Positions 49,680 to 64,000 of a stretch of 64,000 nt of DNA are shown piece after piece. The position numbers and the translations under genes are program-made. The DNA is from Pseudomonas lopnurensis. GTDB taxonomy: Bacteria; Pseudomonadota; Gammaproteobacteria; Pseudomonadales; Pseudomonadaceae. Under the pieces are notes generated by a model. The model had not been told where the DNA came from, did not search any database, and was given only the letters and a program-made list of their open reading frames with translations. The stretch is taken from NCBI RefSeq assembly GCF_015070855.1, contig NZ_JADDIX010000072.1, positions 1,879 to 65,878 on the forward strand. The letters are read 5' to 3'. Position 1 is the first letter of the stretch; each line of letters begins with the position of its first letter.

Positions 49680-50105
49680 ATGTGGCAACAGACTCTGATC
49701 ACCCTGCGGCCGCGTCCGCGCGGTTTTCACCTGATCACCGACGAACTGCTGGCGGCGCTGCCGGAACTGCGGCAATGCCAGGTCGGTCTGTTACATCTGT
49801 GGCTGCGGCACACCTCGGCATCGCTGACCGTCAACGAGAATGCCGATGCCGCGGTACGCCGGGATTTCGAGCGTTTCTTCGACCGCCTGGCACCCCAGGG
49901 CGAACGCGGCTACGAGCACGATTACGAAGGACCTGACGATCTACCCGCGCACTTCAAGGCCAGCCTGCTCGGCTGTCAGCTGAGCCTGCCGGTCAGCGAG
50001 GGGCGCCTGGCGCTGGGTACCTGGCAAGGCATCTATCTCGGCGAACACCGCGACCAGGGTGGTTCGCGGCAGATAGTGGCAACGCTGCACGGAACGGCAA
50101 GTTGA
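49680..50105 (+). CDS. yjbQ: YjbQ/UPF0047-family protein
   Basis: 141 residues. Conserved core: [30 protein letters not shown] and the metal-site tail [13 protein letters not shown] with three His around a cleft. E. coli YjbQ has weak thiamine-phosphate-synthase-like activity in genetic tests; its true role is unknown. The ATG at 49680 gives the family start. Same order (amtB, yjbQ, sutA) as P. aeruginosa. Confidence 0.92.
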
Positions 50106-56028: not shown

Positions 56029-56056
56029 CAAAACCCCGCCTTCGGGCGGGGTTTTG
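56029..56056 (+). terminator. Rho-independent terminator after cyaY
   Basis: CAAAACCCCGCC-TTCG-GGCGGGGTTTTG followed by CTTTTTT, 90 bp past the cyaY stop and before rnk. Confidence 0.94.
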
Positions 56057-56098
56057 CTTTTTTCGCCATTCGATTTCCGCAGGAGCGAGCCAGAACCC

Positions 56099-56503
56099 AT
56101 GACCAGTGCACCGCCGATCATCCTCACCCAACTCGATCTGCAGCGGCTTGAGCGGCTGCTCGACAGCCTGGACGACTATGGTCCGGCCGCCGAAGCGCTC
56201 GAGCAGGAATTGTCGCGGGCGCAGGTGGTGGAACGCAGCGAAATGCCCGCCGGCGTCGTGACCATGAACTCGCGCGTGCACTGCCGCGACGAAGGCAGCG
56301 GCAAGGATTACCACTTGACGTTGGTCTATCCGCACGACGCCGGCAAGGACGGCACCGTGTCCGTGCTGGCACCGGTGGGTACCGCGCTGCTGGGCATGAG
56401 CGTTGGCCAGCACATCGACTGGCCGACGCCAGGCGGCAAGATGATCAAGCTCACCTTGCTCGCGATCGAATATCAGCCCGAAGCGGCGGGCGATCCGTTC
56501 TGA
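56099..56503 (+). CDS. rnk: Nucleoside diphosphate kinase regulator Rnk
   Basis: 134 residues with an N-terminal short coiled coil (LDLQRLERLLDSLDDY) and a GreA/GreB C-terminal-like fold (LVYPHDAGKDGTVSVLAPVGTALLG, GQHIDWPTPGG). Rnk binds RNA polymerase and influences nucleotide pools and, in P. aeruginosa, alginate. The ATG at 56099 gives the family start. It marks the left border of the accessory module; cyaA is its usual near neighbour. Confidence 0.93.
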   Translation: MTSAPPIILTQLDLQRLERLLDSLDDYGPAAEALEQELSRAQVVERSEMPAGVVTMNSRVHCRDEGSGKDYHLTLVYPHDAGKDGTVSVLAPVGTALLGMSVGQHIDWPTPGGKMIKLTLLAIEYQPEAAGDPF

Positions 56504-56600: not shown

Positions 56601-57731
56601 TCAGAGCGTGTCGAGAAAGCTGCGCAGTGCCTTCAGTTCGTCCCGGCTCAGTTCCAGCGGCTTGAAGCGCGCCGAGGTGGTCGGGAACAGCGGATCGTCC
56701 TGCTGCGCGGCGGAGGGTTTCGGCCGGGGCATGCCAACGTTGTAGAAGTTGAGCAGGCCCAGCAGGTCGGGAAACAGCCCGTTATGGATCCACGGCCCGG
56801 TCCGGCCCACCAGCCGTAGCGACGGCGTGCGGAAGCGACCGACGTCCTCTGCCTTGCCGGTCACCTCGTAGCGACCCAGGTCCTCGTACTTGCGCCCGTA
56901 GTAGGTCATGCCGGCATTGTGAAACTGGTCGTCGCTCAGGGTCGGACCGAAATGGCAGTTCATGCAGCGCGCCCGGGTACGGAACAGATGCAGGCCATGC
57001 AACTGTTCGTCGTTCAGCGCATCGTGGCGCCCGCGCAGGAAGCGCTCGAAGCGCGTATTACGGGCGAAACGCACCAGCGTGCGCTGGTAGCTGGCCAGGG
57101 CCTGGCGCAGCATGCGCTCATCGATCGCATCCGCGCCGAACACCTCGGCGAAGCGCGGGCGGTAGCCGGCGTCGGCATTCAACCGTCGCAACAGTTCGTC
57201 CCGGTCGAAGGCCATTTCCAGCGGGTCCTCCACGGGGAACAGCGCCTGGTCCTCAAGGCTGGTGGCGCGGCCGTCCCAGAACGGTTGGCGGGTGAAGCCA
57301 CTCATCATCAGGCTCGGCGAATTGCGCCGCCCGGCCTGGCGATCATGGCCGAAGGACACCTTGCGCCCGTCGGCGAAGGCCAGGTCCGGCTCGTGGCAGG
57401 AGGCGCAGGCGATCTGCCCCGAGCGCGACAGGGCCGGATCGAAGAACAGCCGTTCGCCCAAGGCCGCCTTGGCCTCGCTGAAGGGGTTTTCCTCCGGCGA
57501 CGGCGCACGCTCGGGCAACGGTCCCAGCTCCTGCCAGGCGACGTCCTCGTCCACGTGTGGCGCAGGCCACTGGTCTGGCGGCTGAGTGTAGATCTGGCGC
57601 AGGCAGGCATAGTCGACTTCTCCGGGACGTGCGGCCGTCAGATGCTGGTGACAGCCGTCGGCCTGGACTGTCGTCAGCCAGGGCATGGAGAGCGAGCTGA
57701 TGAGCAGGAGCCTTGTCAGGGAATTGACCAT
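56601..57731 (-). CDS. Di-haem cytochrome c peroxidase-family protein
   Basis: 376 residues. Signal peptide (to about residue 24), then two c-type haem motifs, CASCH near residue 109 and CMNCH near residue 257, as in bacterial cytochrome c peroxidases, MauG and MbnH. The ALGERLFFDPALSRSG and FRTPSLRLVGRTGPWIHNG segments are family hallmarks. It would act in the periplasm, either removing peroxide or oxidising a partner protein or peptide. Its ATG overlaps the stop of the TonB receptor gene by one base (TGATG), so its translation is tied to the receptor. That pairing, under an ECF sigma/FecR system, is unusual. Confidence 0.9.
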   Translation of the reverse strand: MVNSLTRLLLISSLSMPWLTTVQADGCHQHLTAARPGEVDYACLRQIYTQPPDQWPAPHVDEDVAWQELGPLPERAPSPEENPFSEAKAALGERLFFDPALSRSGQIACASCHEPDLAFADGRKVSFGHDRQAGRRNSPSLMMSGFTRQPFWDGRATSLEDQALFPVEDPLEMAFDRDELLRRLNADAGYRPRFAEVFGADAIDERMLRQALASYQRTLVRFARNTRFERFLRGRHDALNDEQLHGLHLFRTRARCMNCHFGPTLSDDQFHNAGMTYYGRKYEDLGRYEVTGKAEDVGRFRTPSLRLVGRTGPWIHNGLFPDLLGLLNFYNVGMPRPKPSAAQQDDPLFPTTSARFKPLELSRDELKALRSFLDTL

Positions 57732-60565
57732 CAGAAGCGGTAGCCGACTTCGAGCCAGTACTGACGTCCGACCTCGTAGGTAGGGACTGCATTGGCGTTG
57801 ACGGTGGTGCTATCGGCGACCAGCACCTTGTCCAGTACGTTGAACACGTCGACATTGACGAACACCGCTTGGTTTCGGGCTGTTGGCAGTTCCCAGCCCA
57901 GGCGGAGGTCCCAGGTCAGCGCCGCATCGTAGTCAAGCTCTTCCCATACGTCGATCAGGTTGCCCTGATAGTCGACATCGCGTCCGGTGTTGCCGACTTT
58001 ACTGAAGCCTGCTCGGTAGCGCAGGAAGTTGCTCAAGCTCAGATTCCATTGAGGAATCTCGGTAATAGTCGTCAGGCGCGCTGTCCACGGTCGGTTGTAG
58101 TTGTCGGCCGGACGATCAGCGTAGCGAATGAATTTGCCTTCGTACTGGATGTAGTTGTTCTCGACGTATTCGTCATATTCGTCGATGTAGCTCGGAGAGG
58201 ACGATTTGCTATCCGTCCAGTCCAGGGCCAATTGCCCGTTGGTGCGTGTGCCAAACCAAATGAACTCTCGCAGCGGCGTAACAGTCAGCGTGAGGACGTG
58301 GGTCTCGCTCTCGCCGGCATTGGTGTAGGTGGTGTAGTTGTTGGAGAGCGTCGGGTCGGTGGACGGCTGGTCGATGGCATTGCCCGTGACCCGGACGATC
58401 TGGTCGTGTCCCTTGCGGTTGACATATTTCAGGCCGAACTCCAGGCCGCTGAACCGTTGGGTGATGCCCAACATCCACTCATCGTCATAGGGAATGTCGA
58501 GCTGGTCGAATTTCACCAGATTGGCCGCATTGGCTATGGCGGTCCATGGCATGTCGAGGCTGCTGCGGGTATCGGTAAAGCGCAGGCGGTTACGTCCATC
58601 CTGTAGTTGCCAACTGCTGATATTGCGACCGTAGTAACGGTTGACCCCAGCGGTGAGCAGGGTGCTGCGATCCGCGAAGAGGTCGTATTCTGCGGCAAGG
58701 CGCGGTGCTACGGTGGTCTTGTCCATATAGTTGTCGCTGTCCACTCGAATACCAGGGCGCAGGTTCAGCCTGCCGATACTGATGTCGTCTTGCAGATAGG
58801 CTGCCCATTGCATGGTGGTAAAGTCGAAGTCGCCGGTGCTGTAGCGAGTGCGGCTACTCATGTACTGCCCGGGCCAGCCGGCCAGCGTGGGGCTGAGTGA
58901 GCAGGCAATATTGTCGGTTACACCGGCGCTGTTGGTGCAGGTGCTGGTCGTTTTCGGGAGGACATAGGTATTGCTTTCGGTCAGGCGCTCGTAGCGTACA
59001 TATTGTTCGGAAATTTCCAGGCCGGTTTGCCATTGGTGGTGCGTGCCTAGCAGTTCGAATGCTTGCCAGTCGACGTTCAGTTTGTATTGCCAAGTGTTCT
59101 GCAACTGCTCGATGTCACCGTAGCCGCCTTCGAGGCTGTTGGCGGTGGCCGTGTTACCGACACCCCAATCTTTCTCTGCGGATTTGCGCCAGGTGAACCA
59201 GTCGTCGTATGCCGAGTCCCGTGACAATTCCAGGCGGCTCCAGGCCAGGTTCTGTTCGATTCGGGTCAGATCGCCGTTCCAGAGTGCTTTCAGATTGACC
59301 TGGGTACCGCCGGACTGGGTTTCAAATTCCGAATTCGCGACATTGCCGCGAAAATAAGTGCTCTCTTCCGGCGCATAAGTGACGCTGGATTCCAGTTCCA
59401 GGCGTTCGCTGGCTTGCCAGAAGGCTTTGAGGAAGTAGTTGTCGATACGACGTTCCTGGTCTCTGCTCTGCTGTCCCATGGTGGCAACGTTATTGGCGGA
59501 GTAGAAGCTTGTCGGGATGGTCGAGCGTTTCTGGCTGAAGTTGGCCAGCAGGCCGAAGTTGTCGGTCAGATGGCCTTCCAGGGTTCCACGCATAATGATT
59601 TTGTCGAACTCGGGCTGCTCGTCGTGATTGGCTGAGTTCTCGAAGGCGTCCTGTTGGCGCTCGTCGATGTGGTACTTGGTCCACGAGGCGCGAGTGGTTT
59701 GTGCGGAAATCTTGCCATGGAAATCCTGGGTCGGCTTGCGGGTCTTGGCTTCGATAACTCCGCCATTGAAGCGACCATAGACGGCGGGAACATTGCTGTC
59801 GTAGACCTCGATCTCTTGCAGCAGGTCGGTGTCCAGCGCCAGGCCCTGACTGCGGCCGGGCACATCGGCAGCCAGATTGGGATTGCTCTGGGCGGGATCG
59901 ATGTCGTTGTTCATGCTGATGCCATCGACCAGAAAGGCGTTCTGGTAGAACTTCGCGCCGTTGATGCTGATATTGGCTGGGCCGATCTCGCCGGGCGTCT
60001 TGCTGCTCTGCTGGTTGTTGTCGAACTGCACGTTGGGATGAATCTTCAGCAGGCTGGTGATATCGCCGTTGCCGGCCGGCAGGCTTTCGATGGTGCGGCG
60101 GTCGAGGGTGGTTTCGCCTTGCTTGCGCTCGCGATCGGCCAGCACCAGCACGTCGTCGAACTGCAGCGGGTGCTGGGTGCGTTCTTCAGTGTTCGCAGCC
60201 GCTGGCGCGGCCTCCAGGGTGAGCGTGCCGCCGCGTTGCCGGTGCCAGGTGAGGCCGGTGCCGGCGAGCAGGCGCTGCAGGGCCTGTTCCAGCGTCAGGT
60301 CGCCCTGCACGGCGCCGGCCTGCTTGTCCCTGAGCAACTGGCCGCTGACGCTGACCTGGACGCCGGCCTGCTGGCCGAAGGCGATCAGCCCGGCGGCCAG
60401 CGGTTGCGCGGCGATGTCGAAGGTGCGGGTCTGTTGCTGGCCGCTGCTGACTTCGGCCGCCGCGGCCAGGCCGGGGTTGGCCAGGAACAATGCCGCGGCG
60501 ATGGCGCCGAGCAGTGGGCTGGAACGAAACGGGGTGCGGGCTGGCCCGGCTGGACGGTGGGTCAC
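57731..60565 (-). CDS. TonB-dependent receptor with STN signalling domain (FecA/FpvA type)
   Basis: 944 residues. Signal peptide (to about 37), STN domain (about 48-118; RTFDIAAQPLAAGLIAFGQQAGVQ), a TonB-box-like DDVLVLAD at 137-144, plug (about 155-300) and 22-strand barrel ending in the aromatic GYRF outer-membrane signal. STN receptors transduce ligand binding to a FecR protein. Codons up to about residue 168 are GC-rich like the neighbours; from there to near the end they carry many A/T third bases (sampled lines about 50-55% GC against about 70%). The barrel has a Cys pair in a long loop (STCTNSAG, IACSLS). Ligand unknown. Confidence 0.93.
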   Translation of the reverse strand: MTHRPAGPARTPFRSSPLLGAIAAALFLANPGLAAAAEVSSGQQQTRTFDIAAQPLAAGLIAFGQQAGVQVSVSGQLLRDKQAGAVQGDLTLEQALQRLLAGTGLTWHRQRGGTLTLEAAPAAANTEERTQHPLQFDDVLVLADRERKQGETTLDRRTIESLPAGNGDITSLLKIHPNVQFDNNQQSSKTPGEIGPANISINGAKFYQNAFLVDGISMNNDIDPAQSNPNLAADVPGRSQGLALDTDLLQEIEVYDSNVPAVYGRFNGGVIEAKTRKPTQDFHGKISAQTTRASWTKYHIDERQQDAFENSANHDEQPEFDKIIMRGTLEGHLTDNFGLLANFSQKRSTIPTSFYSANNVATMGQQSRDQERRIDNYFLKAFWQASERLELESSVTYAPEESTYFRGNVANSEFETQSGGTQVNLKALWNGDLTRIEQNLAWSRLELSRDSAYDDWFTWRKSAEKDWGVGNTATANSLEGGYGDIEQLQNTWQYKLNVDWQAFELLGTHHQWQTGLEISEQYVRYERLTESNTYVLPKTTSTCTNSAGVTDNIACSLSPTLAGWPGQYMSSRTRYSTGDFDFTTMQWAAYLQDDISIGRLNLRPGIRVDSDNYMDKTTVAPRLAAEYDLFADRSTLLTAGVNRYYGRNISSWQLQDGRNRLRFTDTRSSLDMPWTAIANAANLVKFDQLDIPYDDEWMLGITQRFSGLEFGLKYVNRKGHDQIVRVTGNAIDQPSTDPTLSNNYTTYTNAGESETHVLTLTVTPLREFIWFGTRTNGQLALDWTDSKSSSPSYIDEYDEYVENNYIQYEGKFIRYADRPADNYNRPWTARLTTITEIPQWNLSLSNFLRYRAGFSKVGNTGRDVDYQGNLIDVWEELDYDAALTWDLRLGWELPTARNQAVFVNVDVFNVLDKVLVADSTTVNANAVPTYEVGRQYWLEVGYRF

Positions 60566-60900
60566 TGATAAATCCCTCTACTGCATGCTTCGATGAGAAC
60601 GATTCCCGATTGCAGGCAAGAAGACGGATGACCTTTCAGAATTTTCAGAAAATCGCGAATTTTTCAGGCCATGTCTGACGTACCCCTGTCGGAGCGTGCG
60701 AGACGCCGACCTCCAGGTTGCTAATATTCAGCGTGCAAAAGCTTCGCGGGCACGGCCCGCTCCTACGGACGTTCAGAACGCCTGTGCGCTTCGGACATGG
60801 TCTTTTAGCGGCGGATCACCAGGACGTAGGGCGGGTTGCAACCCGCCGAACGGGGTTGGCATCGCGCACGTTCCGGCGGGTTTCACCCGCCCTGCGATGC
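60566..60900. promoter_or_regulatory. Receptor upstream region with repeats
   Basis: 335 bp between fecR's stop and the receptor start, read on the minus strand. Near 60636-60665 it has CTGAAAAATTC, CTGAAAATTC and CTGAAAGG in close succession, then CCGTC, which resembles iron-starvation sigma promoters (AAAAT ... CGTC) but with short spacing, so only a candidate. GATGAGAACGATTCCCGAT near 60592-60610 looks weakly Fur-like. A half REP (TTCGCGGGCACGGCCCGCTC) lies at about 60743-60766. No gene was found. Confidence 0.4.
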
Positions 60901-60926
60901 CTAGCGGCGGATCACCAGCAGGTAGG
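60806..60926. repeat. Variant A two-hairpin element flanked by a duplication of the fecR 3' end
   Basis: The element proper is 60826-60895, with CCTGC in place of the usual CCTAC at the right end. A 25-bp sequence beginning TAGCGGCGGATCACCAG occurs at 60806-60830 and again at 60902-60926 with two mismatches. The second copy is the end of fecR (LLVIRR and stop); the first is a duplicate of those codons and stop beyond the element. FecR stays intact. Confidence 0.85.
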
Positions 60927-61890
60927 GCGACCAGCTTTCCACGTGGCCGCCGTGCGGTTGCACCAGCGCCTCCAGCGCGGCTTGCGGATCCTGCAGGGCA
61001 TAGAGGCCGGTGACGCGCTCGTCGGCCAGTGCCGGGTCCTGCAGCAGGATCCAGCCGGGATAGTGCGGCCGCAGCTGTTCCAGCAACTCGCCGATCGGCT
61101 GGTCTTCGGCGATCAGTTCGCCACGGCGCCAGGCGGCCACGCGCGCGGGTGGAACGCGGTCGCGCACGCACCGTCCGTCGCGGCCGTCCAGGCGCAGGCG
61201 TTCGCCGCCCTTGAGCAGGGTGTCGCGCCGCGGGTCCTTTACCCGCACCGAGCCGTGTTCGACGGCGACGCTCAGCGCCGGCCCCCGCAGCGCCACGGAG
61301 AATGCGGTGCCGGTGACTTCGACGCGGCTGTCGCCGGCCTGCACGATGAAGGGCCGTGAAGCGTCCGGGGTGACCTCGAAAAAGGCCTCGCCCTGCAGCA
61401 GCTCCAGATGCCGATGGTCGGTGTCGAAGCGCGGCCGGATGCTGCTGCCGCCCAACAGCCAGACCCGGCTGCCGTCTTCCAGCACCCACTGTCGGGGCGC
61501 GCCCTTGTCGTTATCGAGTTCGCCGTGCCCGTGCCAGGGCAGCAGCACCATGAGCAGCGCCAGGCAGGCGGCCAGCGCGCTGCCGATCAGGACGGCCCTG
61601 CGCCGGCGCGCGCCGGGCCAGCGCCCCTGACTGGTGACCGGCAACTGACCGCTGAGGCGCCAGACCCGCTCGGCCCGCCGCCAGGCCCGGGCATGGCCGG
61701 GAGAGGCCTGCTGCCAGGCGCGGCAGGCGGCGCGCAGCTCTTCGTCGTCGGGCGACTCCTGCAGCCAGAGCAGCCACTCCATGGCGCTGTTCCAGTGCGG
61801 GTCCTGGGGTGGAATGTCCTTCATCACGGTGCTCGCTGAATTCGTATGCCGGTCGTCCGCCGTGGAGGATGCTTGCGGGACGAGGTGCAT
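60901..61890 (-). CDS. FecR-family anti-sigma/sigma regulator
   Basis: 329 residues. N-terminal DUF4880-like segment (AMEWLLWLQESPDDEELRAACRAWQQ), one membrane segment near residues 97-117, then the periplasmic FecR domain (WVLEDGSRVWLLGGSSIRPRFD, GEAFFEVTPDASRPFIVQAGDSRVEVTGTAFSV). It relays the receptor's signal to the sigma factor. The ATG at 61890 overlaps the sigma stop (TGATG); an alternative ATG at 61824 gives a more typical N-terminus. Order sigma-fecR-receptor is that of fecIRA systems. Confidence 0.92.
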   Translation of the reverse strand: MHLVPQASSTADDRHTNSASTVMKDIPPQDPHWNSAMEWLLWLQESPDDEELRAACRAWQQASPGHARAWRRAERVWRLSGQLPVTSQGRWPGARRRRAVLIGSALAACLALLMVLLPWHGHGELDNDKGAPRQWVLEDGSRVWLLGGSSIRPRFDTDHRHLELLQGEAFFEVTPDASRPFIVQAGDSRVEVTGTAFSVALRGPALSVAVEHGSVRVKDPRRDTLLKGGERLRLDGRDGRCVRDRVPPARVAAWRRGELIAEDQPIGELLEQLRPHYPGWILLQDPALADERVTGLYALQDPQAALEALVQPHGGHVESWSPYLLVIRR

Positions 61891-62396
61891 CAGTATGACT
61901 CATCGTCCAGACAGGCCGCGCAATGGCCGAGCGCGGTTCGCACCAGCTGGTGCGCGAGGCCGACGGAGATGCCGAGGTGCGCGGCGATCTGCTGCAGGGT
62001 ATAGCCGCCCAGCCGGTGCATCTCGAAGGCGATGCGGGTGCGTTCCGGCAGCCGCGCCAGCGCCTCGGCGATCAGGCGCAGTTCGTCCTGCTGGCACAAT
62101 TGCTGTTCGGGGGAGGGCGTGCTCGCCGGCAGCTCGGCGAGCAGGTCGTTGGCGTCGTCCTGGCGCTGGTTGCTGCCGGCGCGCCGGGTCAGGTCCAACG
62201 CCAGGTTGCGCACGATACGGTAGAGATAGGCCAGCGGCTGGGCGAGATTGCTGCGCTCGGCCTGGCTGAAGCGCAACCAGGCCTCCTGGACGACTTCCTC
62301 GGCCTCGGCGCGGCAACCGGTGATCGGCGCCGCGTAATCCACGAGTGCCTTGCGATGGGTCACGAACAGATCGGTTCTGTTGCCTGGCTCGTTCAC
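61890..62396 (-). CDS. ECF RNA polymerase sigma factor (FecI group)
   Basis: 168 residues. Region 2 (LVDYAAPITGCRAEAEEVVQEAWLRF, LAYLYRIVRNLALDLTRR) and region 4 (LPERTRIAFEMHRLGGYTLQQIAAHLGISVGLAHQLVRTAL) of an extracytoplasmic-function sigma factor. It would be released by FecR when the receptor is loaded and then transcribe the receptor-peroxidase pair. A Fur-like site lies about 60-90 bp upstream, so it is probably iron-controlled. Confidence 0.93.
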   Translation of the reverse strand: MNEPGNRTDLFVTHRKALVDYAAPITGCRAEAEEVVQEAWLRFSQAERSNLAQPLAYLYRIVRNLALDLTRRAGSNQRQDDANDLLAELPASTPSPEQQLCQQDELRLIAEALARLPERTRIAFEMHRLGGYTLQQIAAHLGISVGLAHQLVRTALGHCAACLDDESY

Positions 62397-62453: not shown

Positions 62454-62483
62454 AAATTGTTATCAAACGCTAATTATTCTCAT
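62454..62483 (-). promoter_or_regulatory. Fur-box-like sequence ahead of the ECF sigma gene
   Basis: On the minus strand it reads GAGAATAATTAGCGTTTGA, matching about 11 of 19 positions of the GATAATGATAATCATTATC consensus, followed by an AT-rich ATAACAATTT. It is a lone AT-rich patch in GC-rich DNA and touches the cyaA stop codon. Confidence 0.5.
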
Positions 62484-64000
62484 CCATTCCTGAGCGCCAG
62501 GTTGAGCGCCGCTTCCAGCCTCGACTTGTAGCGCAGGTGCTGCACGGTCTGGCTGCGCCCCGTGCCGTGCAGGCCGGTGAGGTCGAGATCGGTGATGTAG
62601 CAGGGGTAGCGCTCGCCATTGCGCCGGCGTGCGAGGATGTGGCGCGCCACCGTGGCGAACAGCTCGGCACCGTACTCCAGACCGGAGAATTCCTGGTGGT
62701 TGCAGTACAGCGTGACCTGCGAGCGGCCCTGGTCGCCGGGTTCGATGATGGCCTGTACGTCGTAAAAGGGGTCGCTGACCGCGCCTTGCGGAGTGGGCCG
62801 TCGCTCCAGTTGCATGGCTCCGGCCGGGGTGTGGACGATGCGGTAGAGGTGGATGTCCAGCGTGCACGGCGCCAGGTCATCGGCCAGCGGCCACTGGGCG
62901 TTGCGCCGGTAGGCCAGTGATTGCAGGAAGCGCAGCAGCGGCATCAGCAGGCTCTGCTCGTCGCGATAGGGCAGTTGCTGGCGCCAGAGTGCGTTGCATT
63001 CGTCGAGCACGCTGAGTTCGGCGGTTTCGCCGACGATACGGTAGAACACCTGCAGGCAATCCGGACGTCCGAGCGGCAGGATCAGCGCCAGGTCGTCGCC
63101 GGCCAGCGCCTGCCGGTCGAGCCGGATCGGGCTGAATGCGTGGTGCGCCTCGCCCAAGTGCTCGAGCAGGGCCGGCCGGTCGCCGAGGCTGGCCAGGCTC
63201 GTTTCGCCGGCGATGCGTTGCAGCAGGTGGAACTGCTGGCGGATCTGCAACAGGTAGCGACCGTGATCGGCGGTGGCGAAGTTGCGACGGGCATCGTCGA
63301 AGATTTCCCGGACCCGCCGGGTGATGGCCTGGCCGCGGTTGCGCGCGAAACAGAATGCCTGCAGGTCCGGCCAGCCGGCATCGTCGGTCAGACCGGCGAA
63401 GTGCTCGCGCAGGCATTGGGGGAGTGCCTGCGGGCCTTCGAAGCGGGTCACCAGCAGCTCGTTCCAGCTGTTCAGCATGACCTGGTCGATGCTCAGCACC
63501 AGGTTCTCCGGCGTCGCGTTCTGGCCGAATTGCTCGCTGTTCACCGAATCGTTCTGGGGGATCGTGGGATCGACGCCGACATTGACCAGCAGCAGCACCC
63601 GGCTGGGCTGGCTGGCTGCCAGTAGCGCCTCTTCGCCGACCTGGGGCAGGGGCAGCGGTAGTGCACGGCGCAGGTCGTTGAACAGCGCAAACAGTTCCGC
63701 CTCGCTCAGGCCGCTGTCGCCGGGGAACAGCGACAGGTGGGTGCCGGTGTCGACCACGCCGTTGCGGTGGCACCAGGCAAGCAGCGCCACCAGCTCGCGG
63801 GAGCGCTTGAGCGGCGCGAAGTCCGGCCATTGCTGGGGCGTGAGGCTGCCCTGGTAGAGCGACCAGTGCACGTCGCCGGCGTCATCGTAGCCGTGCACCA
63901 GGGTCAGGCTGTCCTCGGCCATGTCCGGCGATATGCCGAGGTTGACCGTCTCGACCTTGCCGGCCTTGCGCTCGATGGCGGCGTACAGCCGGCGGCCGAG
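62480..64000 (-). CDS. cyaA: Class I adenylate cyclase, C-terminal part
   Basis: 506 codons of the C-terminal part; the gene continues beyond the right edge, as the frame is open to 64000 with LGRRLYAAIERKAGKVE before the internal Met at 63922. Class I cyclases make cAMP for Vfr/CRP; this part is the regulatory C-terminal half. The match includes LLVNVGVDPT, DQVMLNSWNELLVTRFEG and RYRSRLEAALNLA-like QHLRYKSRLEAALNLALRNG. In P. aeruginosa cyaA follows close after rnk; here the ECF/receptor module separates them. Confidence 0.92.
   Translation of the reverse strand, partial: LGRRLYAAIERKAGKVETVNLGISPDMAEDSLTLVHGYDDAGDVHWSLYQGSLTPQQWPDFAPLKRSRELVALLAWCHRNGVVDTGTHLSLFPGDSGLSEAELFALFNDLRRALPLPLPQVGEEALLAASQPSRVLLLVNVGVDPTIPQNDSVNSEQFGQNATPENLVLSIDQVMLNSWNELLVTRFEGPQALPQCLREHFAGLTDDAGWPDLQAFCFARNRGQAITRRVREIFDDARRNFATADHGRYLLQIRQQFHLLQRIAGETSLASLGDRPALLEHLGEAHHAFSPIRLDRQALAGDDLALILPLGRPDCLQVFYRIVGETAELSVLDECNALWRQQLPYRDEQSLLMPLLRFLQSLAYRRNAQWPLADDLAPCTLDIHLYRIVHTPAGAMQLERRPTPQGAVSDPFYDVQAIIEPGDQGRSQVTLYCNHQEFSGLEYGAELFATVARHILARRRNGERYPCYITDLDLTGLHGTGRSQTVQHLRYKSRLEAALNLALRNG

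Follow-up and report, generated by a model that had tools for sequence, protein, structure and literature searches.

The operon described here most probably encodes a FusA-family import system, in which a di-haem enzyme occupies the gene position that a protease holds in related operons. It was found in the window, as we call the whole 64,000-nucleotide stretch of Pseudomonas lopnurensis DNA that was analyzed. Four genes on the minus strand (62396-56601) form one operon for an ECF sigma factor, a FecR, an STN-type TonB-dependent receptor and a di-haem enzyme of the CCP/MauG family. We give an even chance to the reading that this is an iron-responsive, ligand-inducible importer of the FusA kind, in which the MauG-like di-haem enzyme replaces FusC and would unload the iron by oxidation. 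Cargo and chemistry are what we infer, and oxidative unloading is the best, if unproved, reading. In Fus systems the partner of the receptor is the protease FusC, and to our knowledge the processing step known for FusA-type import of iron proteins is proteolysis. The four genes are as follows.

61890..62396, minus strand: ECF sigma factor, FecI-like; GTG start, 168 aa; Pfam Sigma70_r2 and Sigma70_r4_2 (E 2.9e-13).
60901..61890, minus strand: FecR-type regulator; 329 aa; Pfam FecR (E 1e-20) and DUF4880.
57731..60565, minus strand: FusA-family TonB-dependent receptor; GTG start, 944 aa; Pfam STN (N-terminal signalling) and Plug.
56601..57731, minus strand: di-haem CCP/MauG-superfamily enzyme; 376 aa; Pfam CCP_MauG (E 9.5e-50).

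A first-pass annotation had described sigma factor, FecR and STN receptor in fecIRA order together with a di-haem CCP-family gene, and Pfam recovered all four at the positions claimed. Likewise present was the coupling it had reported, the enzyme ATG overlapping the receptor stop codon (TGATG). The N terminus of the enzyme is signal-like. The operon is flanked by rnk (56054-56503, plus strand), with lysA past it, on one side and by cyaA (from 62480, minus strand) on the other, and its description as an accessory module between these two genes was borne out. The genes for FecR and receptor are 335 nt apart, with a repeat element inside this gap. Here, two 28-nt direct repeats (window 60806-60929; 93% alike, 96 nt apart) flank a REP-like hairpin. 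One repeat overlaps the end of fecR, the hairpin lies within the gap, and the arrangement looks like a repeat-element insertion.

Among solved structures, the receptor matched best the ferredoxin receptor FusA (4zgv; E 4e-109, residues 138-943), followed by 6ofr (E 1.3e-90), which we take to be E. coli YddB. The operon has the FusA/YddB-family receptor of the Fus and other protease-associated import systems and, at the same time, the clustered ECF sigma factor, FecR and STN-bearing receptor of FecIRA systems. The FusA match, the STN domain and the adjoining sigma-FecR pair together indicate a FusA-family receptor with its own cell-surface signalling pair. HasR, FpvA, FecA and other receptors matched by their N-terminal parts only. 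A ferric-citrate receptor was ruled out, because the FecA model is confined to residues 17-130; a close match to a known ferric-siderophore or citrate receptor, which the first-pass annotation had named as an outcome that would speak against it, was thus not what we found. Methanobactin operons contain MbnI, MbnR, MbnT, MbnP and MbnH, and this copper-related neighbourhood had been proposed as the nearest parallel. Because the receptor matches FusA and MbnP is missing, this neighbourhood is ruled out as the closest parallel, and the family of Fus and protease-associated import systems takes its place. An annotated MbnP (from L192) had no relative among the open reading frames of either the di-haem loci or the part of the window from position 50000 onwards, in agreement with the earlier remark on its absence. 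The earlier interpretation therefore stands for the FecIRA-type operon with its coupled di-haem enzyme and falls for methanobactin.

Receptor and enzyme are found together far beyond this genome. Using a cutoff of E ≤ 1e-60, 22 enzyme homologues were found in 398 genomes of the family (7 of 19 genera), with a sporadic distribution inside the genus (7 of 56 genomes). All 22 directly adjoin a FusA-like receptor gene, a distant one (about 27-30% identical) at L179-L181. Another peroxidase of ordinary type in the same six genomes was used as control, and 0 of its 6 loci showed a receptor, sigma or FecR match in the 1.5-kb flanks. Pairing by chance, which would have counted against the earlier proposal, was ruled out by this difference. 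P. helleri and P. citronellolis are genomes with the same operon. Receptor stop and enzyme start overlap in 14 of the 24 rows measured. As L062/L172 and L065/L169 are duplicate pairs, these rows stand for 22 distinct loci, of which 14 show the overlap (L042 is outside the count; starts were assigned mechanically). The search for genes conserved with the pair, also proposed earlier, gave no MbnP relative, and among the gene clusters listed no further gene recurs only with the di-haem enzyme.

We are aware of the fact that the receptor-peroxidase pairing is already known from one survey (PMC6793856, 2019). Its available text reports multiple cases without FusC, in which FusA homologues adjoin cytochrome c peroxidase genes, and names an Achromobacter cluster as an example. 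No experiment on the pair appears in this text, or in titles and abstracts of the later literature searched. To this the present analysis adds the module swap, the haem ligand, the exchange of receptor barrels and the occurrence of the enzyme subfamily beside other TonB receptors of Bacteroidota.

The module swap became visible from the genes that follow related receptors. Receptor matches (E ≤ 1e-60) were found in at least 49 places in at least 45 of the 398 family genomes, both lower bounds, as the search scored two candidates per genome. With L045 and L181, the latter found via its enzyme, these 49 matches make up 51 FusA-like loci. The gene after the receptor encodes an M16 protease in 25 of them, a di-haem enzyme in 22, a rhodanese in 3 and a ChaN-like protein in 1; at L166 the protease comes after an ABC gene. 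Protease and di-haem enzyme occurred together in none of the 51 stretches fetched. The slot between cyaA and rnk harbors 5 di-haem operons, all from the genus of the window, and 9 M16 operons, all from one other genus. The window operon has no M16 protease of the FusC/PqqL type known from Fus systems, and the best M16 match genome-wide, to residues 33-382 of the L043 protease, reached 26%. A gene for an SbmA-type ABC transporter, which presumably resembles YddA, was found at 24 of 25 M16 loci versus 0 of 34 di-haem loci, two of which (L167, L081) extend no further than 130 nt from the enzyme gene. Its SbmA/BacA-type membrane domain was recognized by Pfam on L155 and L166, while the only ABC match among the di-haem loci was of 42 bits and on the opposite strand (L173). 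Absence of the transporter gene from di-haem loci is as expected if peptides are not made; protease and transporter merely travelling together would equally produce this contrast.

In a receptor tree of 66 rows, 24 M16 receptors formed one clade and 21 di-haem receptors its sister clade. Other di-haem receptors, joined by a single M16 receptor (L166), branched off more deeply, some of them on long branches. The partner label changed 5 times on this tree compared to a mean of 23.8 after shuffling. The tree was built without FusA and YddB themselves, several of its deep branches are long, and it leans towards relatives of the window receptor, as the class-level receptor search contributed only four loci from 368 other genomes. 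Three of these four (L183-L185) have the enzyme, L182 is without it.

The less frequent partners were inspected as well. FusA-like receptors followed by a lipoprotein and a rhodanese were found at L044:6158-7752, L045:10226-11820 and L164:9051-10570. These rhodaneses are 3-mercaptopyruvate sulfurtransferase-like with a signal-like start, and a sulfur-based handling of iron-sulfur cargo is possible. At L164:6136-9030 an in-frame stop (G188:C45) interrupts the receptor frame of the rhodanese-type operon, apparently a broken copy. The fourth kind of partner, at L165:5647-6630, is a ChaN/Tiki-family haem-binding lipoprotein (PF04187) behind a FusA-like receptor. A lipoprotein of about 1050 aa with glycine-rich start adjoins FusA-like receptors at L066:4322-7462 and also at L095, L118, L182 and L185. 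Its sole Pfam match is weak and carboxypeptidase-regulatory-like, and it could be a surface protein for cargo capture. In P. helleri (L061:11130-13705) the genes directly behind the enzyme encode a substrate-binding protein of ABC type and a fused permease. The assignment of this transporter to iron (FbpA/FbpB) was not upheld for this one locus; the nearest NCBIfam models, all below cut-off, were those of 2-aminoethylphosphonate, sulfate and molybdate transporters.

The di-haem enzyme carries two CxxCH motifs (His113, His260) and the complete peroxidase/MauG active-site set Trp152, Gln162 and Glu172. In an alignment of 105 rows, two of them duplicates, both motifs, Trp152 and Glu172 were kept throughout, Gln162 and Tyr330 in 104 rows each, and the peroxidase-loop His129 in 77, the window enzyme included. 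A conserved N-terminal segment (Tyr48 in 94, Trp55 in 95, Pro56 in 97 of the 105 rows) marks the enzyme as a member of a separate subfamily. By residue counting along the alignment to MauG chain 3sjl, Tyr330 corresponds to the haem ligand Tyr294 of MauG, and the second haem site looks MauG/MbnH-like, with ligation read from the sequence alignment. Annotated MauG and annotated MbnH also have Tyr at this place, and both lack the loop His. The second, ordinary-type peroxidase of the same genome has Met here, as have three from related genomes (4 of 4 compared). The Met expected in bacterial cytochrome c peroxidases as distal ligand of the high-potential haem is therefore Tyr330 in the window enzyme, according to the alignment.

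Assignment to either known enzyme was not obtained. The MauG model TIGR03791 scored 199.2 bits (cut-off 443.85) and the MbnH model TIGR04039 197 bits (cut-off 362.85). In the di-haem tree annotated MbnH was 2.88 changes per site away on a long, unsure branch, and neither MauG nor MbnH was placed with support. The alignment to 6e1c, which we take to be MbnH, runs through the C terminus (E 1.3e-64). An identification of 6e1c as BthA was ruled out by a spacing of 85 residues versus 92 in the BthA paper. According to the available text of PMC6405878, ligation is Met-His in peroxidases and Tyr-His in MauG, yet BthA reduces H2O2 with Tyr-His ligation. Since BthA turns over H2O2 in this way, Tyr330 favours but does not prove protein oxidation.

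A comparison of loci in the cyaA-rnk slot revealed which parts of the operon vary. For the five di-haem loci the mean identity was 54% for the receptor, 70% for fecR, 79% for cyaA, 81% for the enzyme, 88% for the sigma factor, 93% for rnk and 96% for lysA. For the receptors of L040 and L042 the likeness is 90-100% over residues 1-200, falls to 62-68% over residues 201-350 and is mostly 28-50% further on; the DNA of these loci is 91% identical up to about that point and 88% again starting 110 nt into the enzyme gene. Between window and L038, DNA identity was 87% for sigma and fecR, 78% for the first approximately 400 codons of the receptor and, starting 120 nt into the enzyme gene, 90%. Hence, the receptor barrel is swapped between species, while enzyme and STN part stay alike. 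For 7 of the 9 M16 slot loci we calculated mean identities of 64% for the receptor, 62% for fecR, 76% for sigma, 78% for the protease and 85% for the ABC transporter. Here fecR varies like the receptor because L155 has a different sigma-fecR pair, so that signalling genes are sometimes exchanged too. In both slot sets the presumed unloading enzyme is the steady part and the receptor barrel the variable one.

Three candidate regulatory sites were found in the operon.

62469..62487, minus strand: putative Fur box upstream of the sigma gene; 12 of 19 to consensus, weak.
60621..60651, minus strand: putative promoter of receptor and enzyme genes, sigma-dependent; CTGAAAAT-N14-CGTC.
60595..60613, minus strand: Fur-box-like site upstream of the receptor gene; 11 of 19, weak.

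Genome-wide, the longer promoter search pattern had a single occurrence, compared to none in the reversed control. The motif CTGRAAAT-N14-CGTY, a putative promoter presumably similar to FecI-type promoters, lies close to the start of the receptor gene in 16 of 25 M16 loci, 10 of 34 di-haem loci and none of the 3 rhodanese loci. Fur-like sites upstream of sigma reached 13-15 of 19 in 5 of 12 loci (lowest of the 12, 11), those upstream of the receptor at most 14 of 19 in relatives (lowest of 13 regions, 9). Of 5000 random 165-nt pieces of the window, 1.4% reached 12 of 19 and none 13 or more, a lenient control, as these pieces are mostly coding and GC-rich.

To look beyond the family, the best 80 of at least 583 enzyme relatives from a scan of named genomes were analyzed, and 56 of these 80 had a match to a TonB-receptor system within 6.5 kb on either strand. 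Among the same best 80, a FusA-like receptor was near the enzyme in 14 of 16 Pseudomonadota; for the 47 Bacteroidota the TBDR-DUF4876 type was near 28 and the SusC/SusD type near 14; the 17 from other phyla showed no match to the TonB-receptor queries, where a tally of none stands for no match to our own receptor-system queries. At L130, tallied as none, a divergent 780-aa protein with carboxypeptidase-regulatory-like start lies 0.5 kb away and may be another TonB receptor type. Members of the subfamily 42-53% identical were found in Helicobacter (L072, L099) and Planctomycetota (L073, L087, L090) with nothing nearby matching the TonB-receptor queries; these may have a different role. The receptor-enzyme pair is carried by a Shinella megaplasmid, and on a Novosphingobium plasmid the enzyme lies close to a set of sigma, FecR and receptor genes. 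Iron depletion strongly induces DUF4876-TonB loci in Porphyromonas gingivalis and Bacteroides thetaiotaomicron, with values of 20.8-214.5 fold and up to 128 fold (PMC10434189); the available text of that paper makes no mention of a di-haem enzyme at these loci.

For oxidative unloading we propose the following course. Low iron would relieve Fur repression of sigma-fecR, assuming that Fur binds the weak sites seen. Binding of cargo would be signalled from the STN domain of the receptor via FecR to the sigma factor, as in FecIRA, and the sigma factor would transcribe receptor and enzyme from the promoter-like motif. By analogy to FusA, the receptor would carry an iron-bearing protein into the periplasm. 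There, the H2O2-charged enzyme with its Tyr-type second haem would oxidise the cargo or its cofactor, freeing the iron with no peptides produced. Since the barrel is exchanged while enzyme and STN part remain constant, the enzyme may act on a chemical feature common to several cargoes. The match of almost the entire receptor to FusA as best solved relative, the partner tally, the shared cyaA-rnk slot, the ABC contrast, the receptor tree, Tyr330, the mosaic receptors, the Fur-like boxes and the promoter motif common to M16 operons argue for this reading. Against it stand the presence of His129, the weakness of the Fur boxes, the lack of the promoter motif at 24 of 34 di-haem loci and at all 3 rhodanese loci, the signalling genes exchanged too in the M16 slot (L155), the H2O2 turnover of BthA with Tyr-His ligation (PMC6405878) and the doubt expressed in PMC6793856, as far as its text is available, that ferredoxin is the general cargo.

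Periplasmic unloading of iron would drive Fenton chemistry, and the importer might bring its own peroxidase as a local peroxide scavenger. His129 and the complete Trp152, Gln162 and Glu172 set agree with this, as does the reported rise of Pseudomonas plecoglossicida fusA in response to H2O2 as well as to an iron chelator (PMC8981516, available text). However, the enzyme occupies the position of the cargo-processing gene of relatives, M16-type operons do without it, the genome has another peroxidase and the second haem shows the MauG-type Tyr position instead of Met, so we consider scavenging unlikely. We also find it improbable that the enzyme, similar to MbnH, oxidises residues of the receptor or a partner protein and thereby creates a metal- or ligand-binding site. 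The alignment to 6e1c through the C terminus, the Tyr ligand position and the matches to MauG and MbnH models, although below cut-off, would fit such a modification, but the di-haem loci contain no MbnP relative, no other gene among the clusters listed recurs only with the enzyme, and the sister M16-type operons are entirely without it.

Alternatively, the cargo might be a small redox-active iron chelate or haem-type compound, whose ligand the enzyme breaks or oxidises to free the iron. Siderophores are well known to be processed once taken up, and a ChaN-like protein of a haem-binding family partners one receptor (L165). The receptor is nevertheless of FusA type, and its sister clade goes with a protease, making protein cargo likelier and a small chelate a rather doubtful candidate. 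Finally, the available text of PMC6793856 suggests for FusA-linked cytochrome c peroxidases that the imported protein is reduced and drops its iron cofactor. Enzymes of the di-haem superfamily, on the contrary, oxidise partner proteins using H2O2 (PMC6405878, available text); the present data favour oxidation, and we regard reduction as very improbable.

Beyond oxidative unloading in the window operon, there might be a second class of TonB-dependent importers of iron cargo, associated with an oxidase and not with a protease. This wider proposal is tentative, and we rate its chances below even. One MauG-like subfamily would provide the unloading enzyme for at least three classes of receptor, namely the FusA type of Pseudomonadota and the TBDR-DUF4876 and SusC/SusD types of Bacteroidota. 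The barrels in front of it would be interchangeable, with protease, rhodanese or ChaN-like protein as alternative unloading factors behind related receptors. If H2O2-driven unloading by the di-haem enzyme holds true, nutrient piracy is added to the roles of MauG-like chemistry, and a function is obtained for many of the uncharacterised 'cytochrome c peroxidases' encoded next to TonB receptors. Sister operons with different unloading enzymes in the same chromosomal slot would then offer a clean comparison.

Compared to known systems, the enzyme resembles MauG in the Tyr294 position and the active-site Trp, Gln and Glu, but the operon has no mau genes, and the peroxidase His loop is present in the window enzyme and absent from the MauG compared. 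Methanobactin operons share sigma factor, regulator, TonB receptor and a di-haem enzyme with Tyr at the ligand position; they differ by MbnP, which has no relative here, while the window receptor is of FusA type and its enzyme below the MbnH cut-off. With FecIRA the operon has sigma factor, FecR and STN receptor in identical order in common, whereas its receptor is FusA-like and an enzyme gene is coupled to it. The likeness to Fus and protease-associated import (FusA-FusC, YddB-PqqL) lies in the receptor family and the operon position of the processing gene. In contrast to Fus, the window operon contains a di-haem enzyme instead of M16 protease and SbmA-type ABC transporter, and it possesses its own sigma-FecR pair together with an STN domain.
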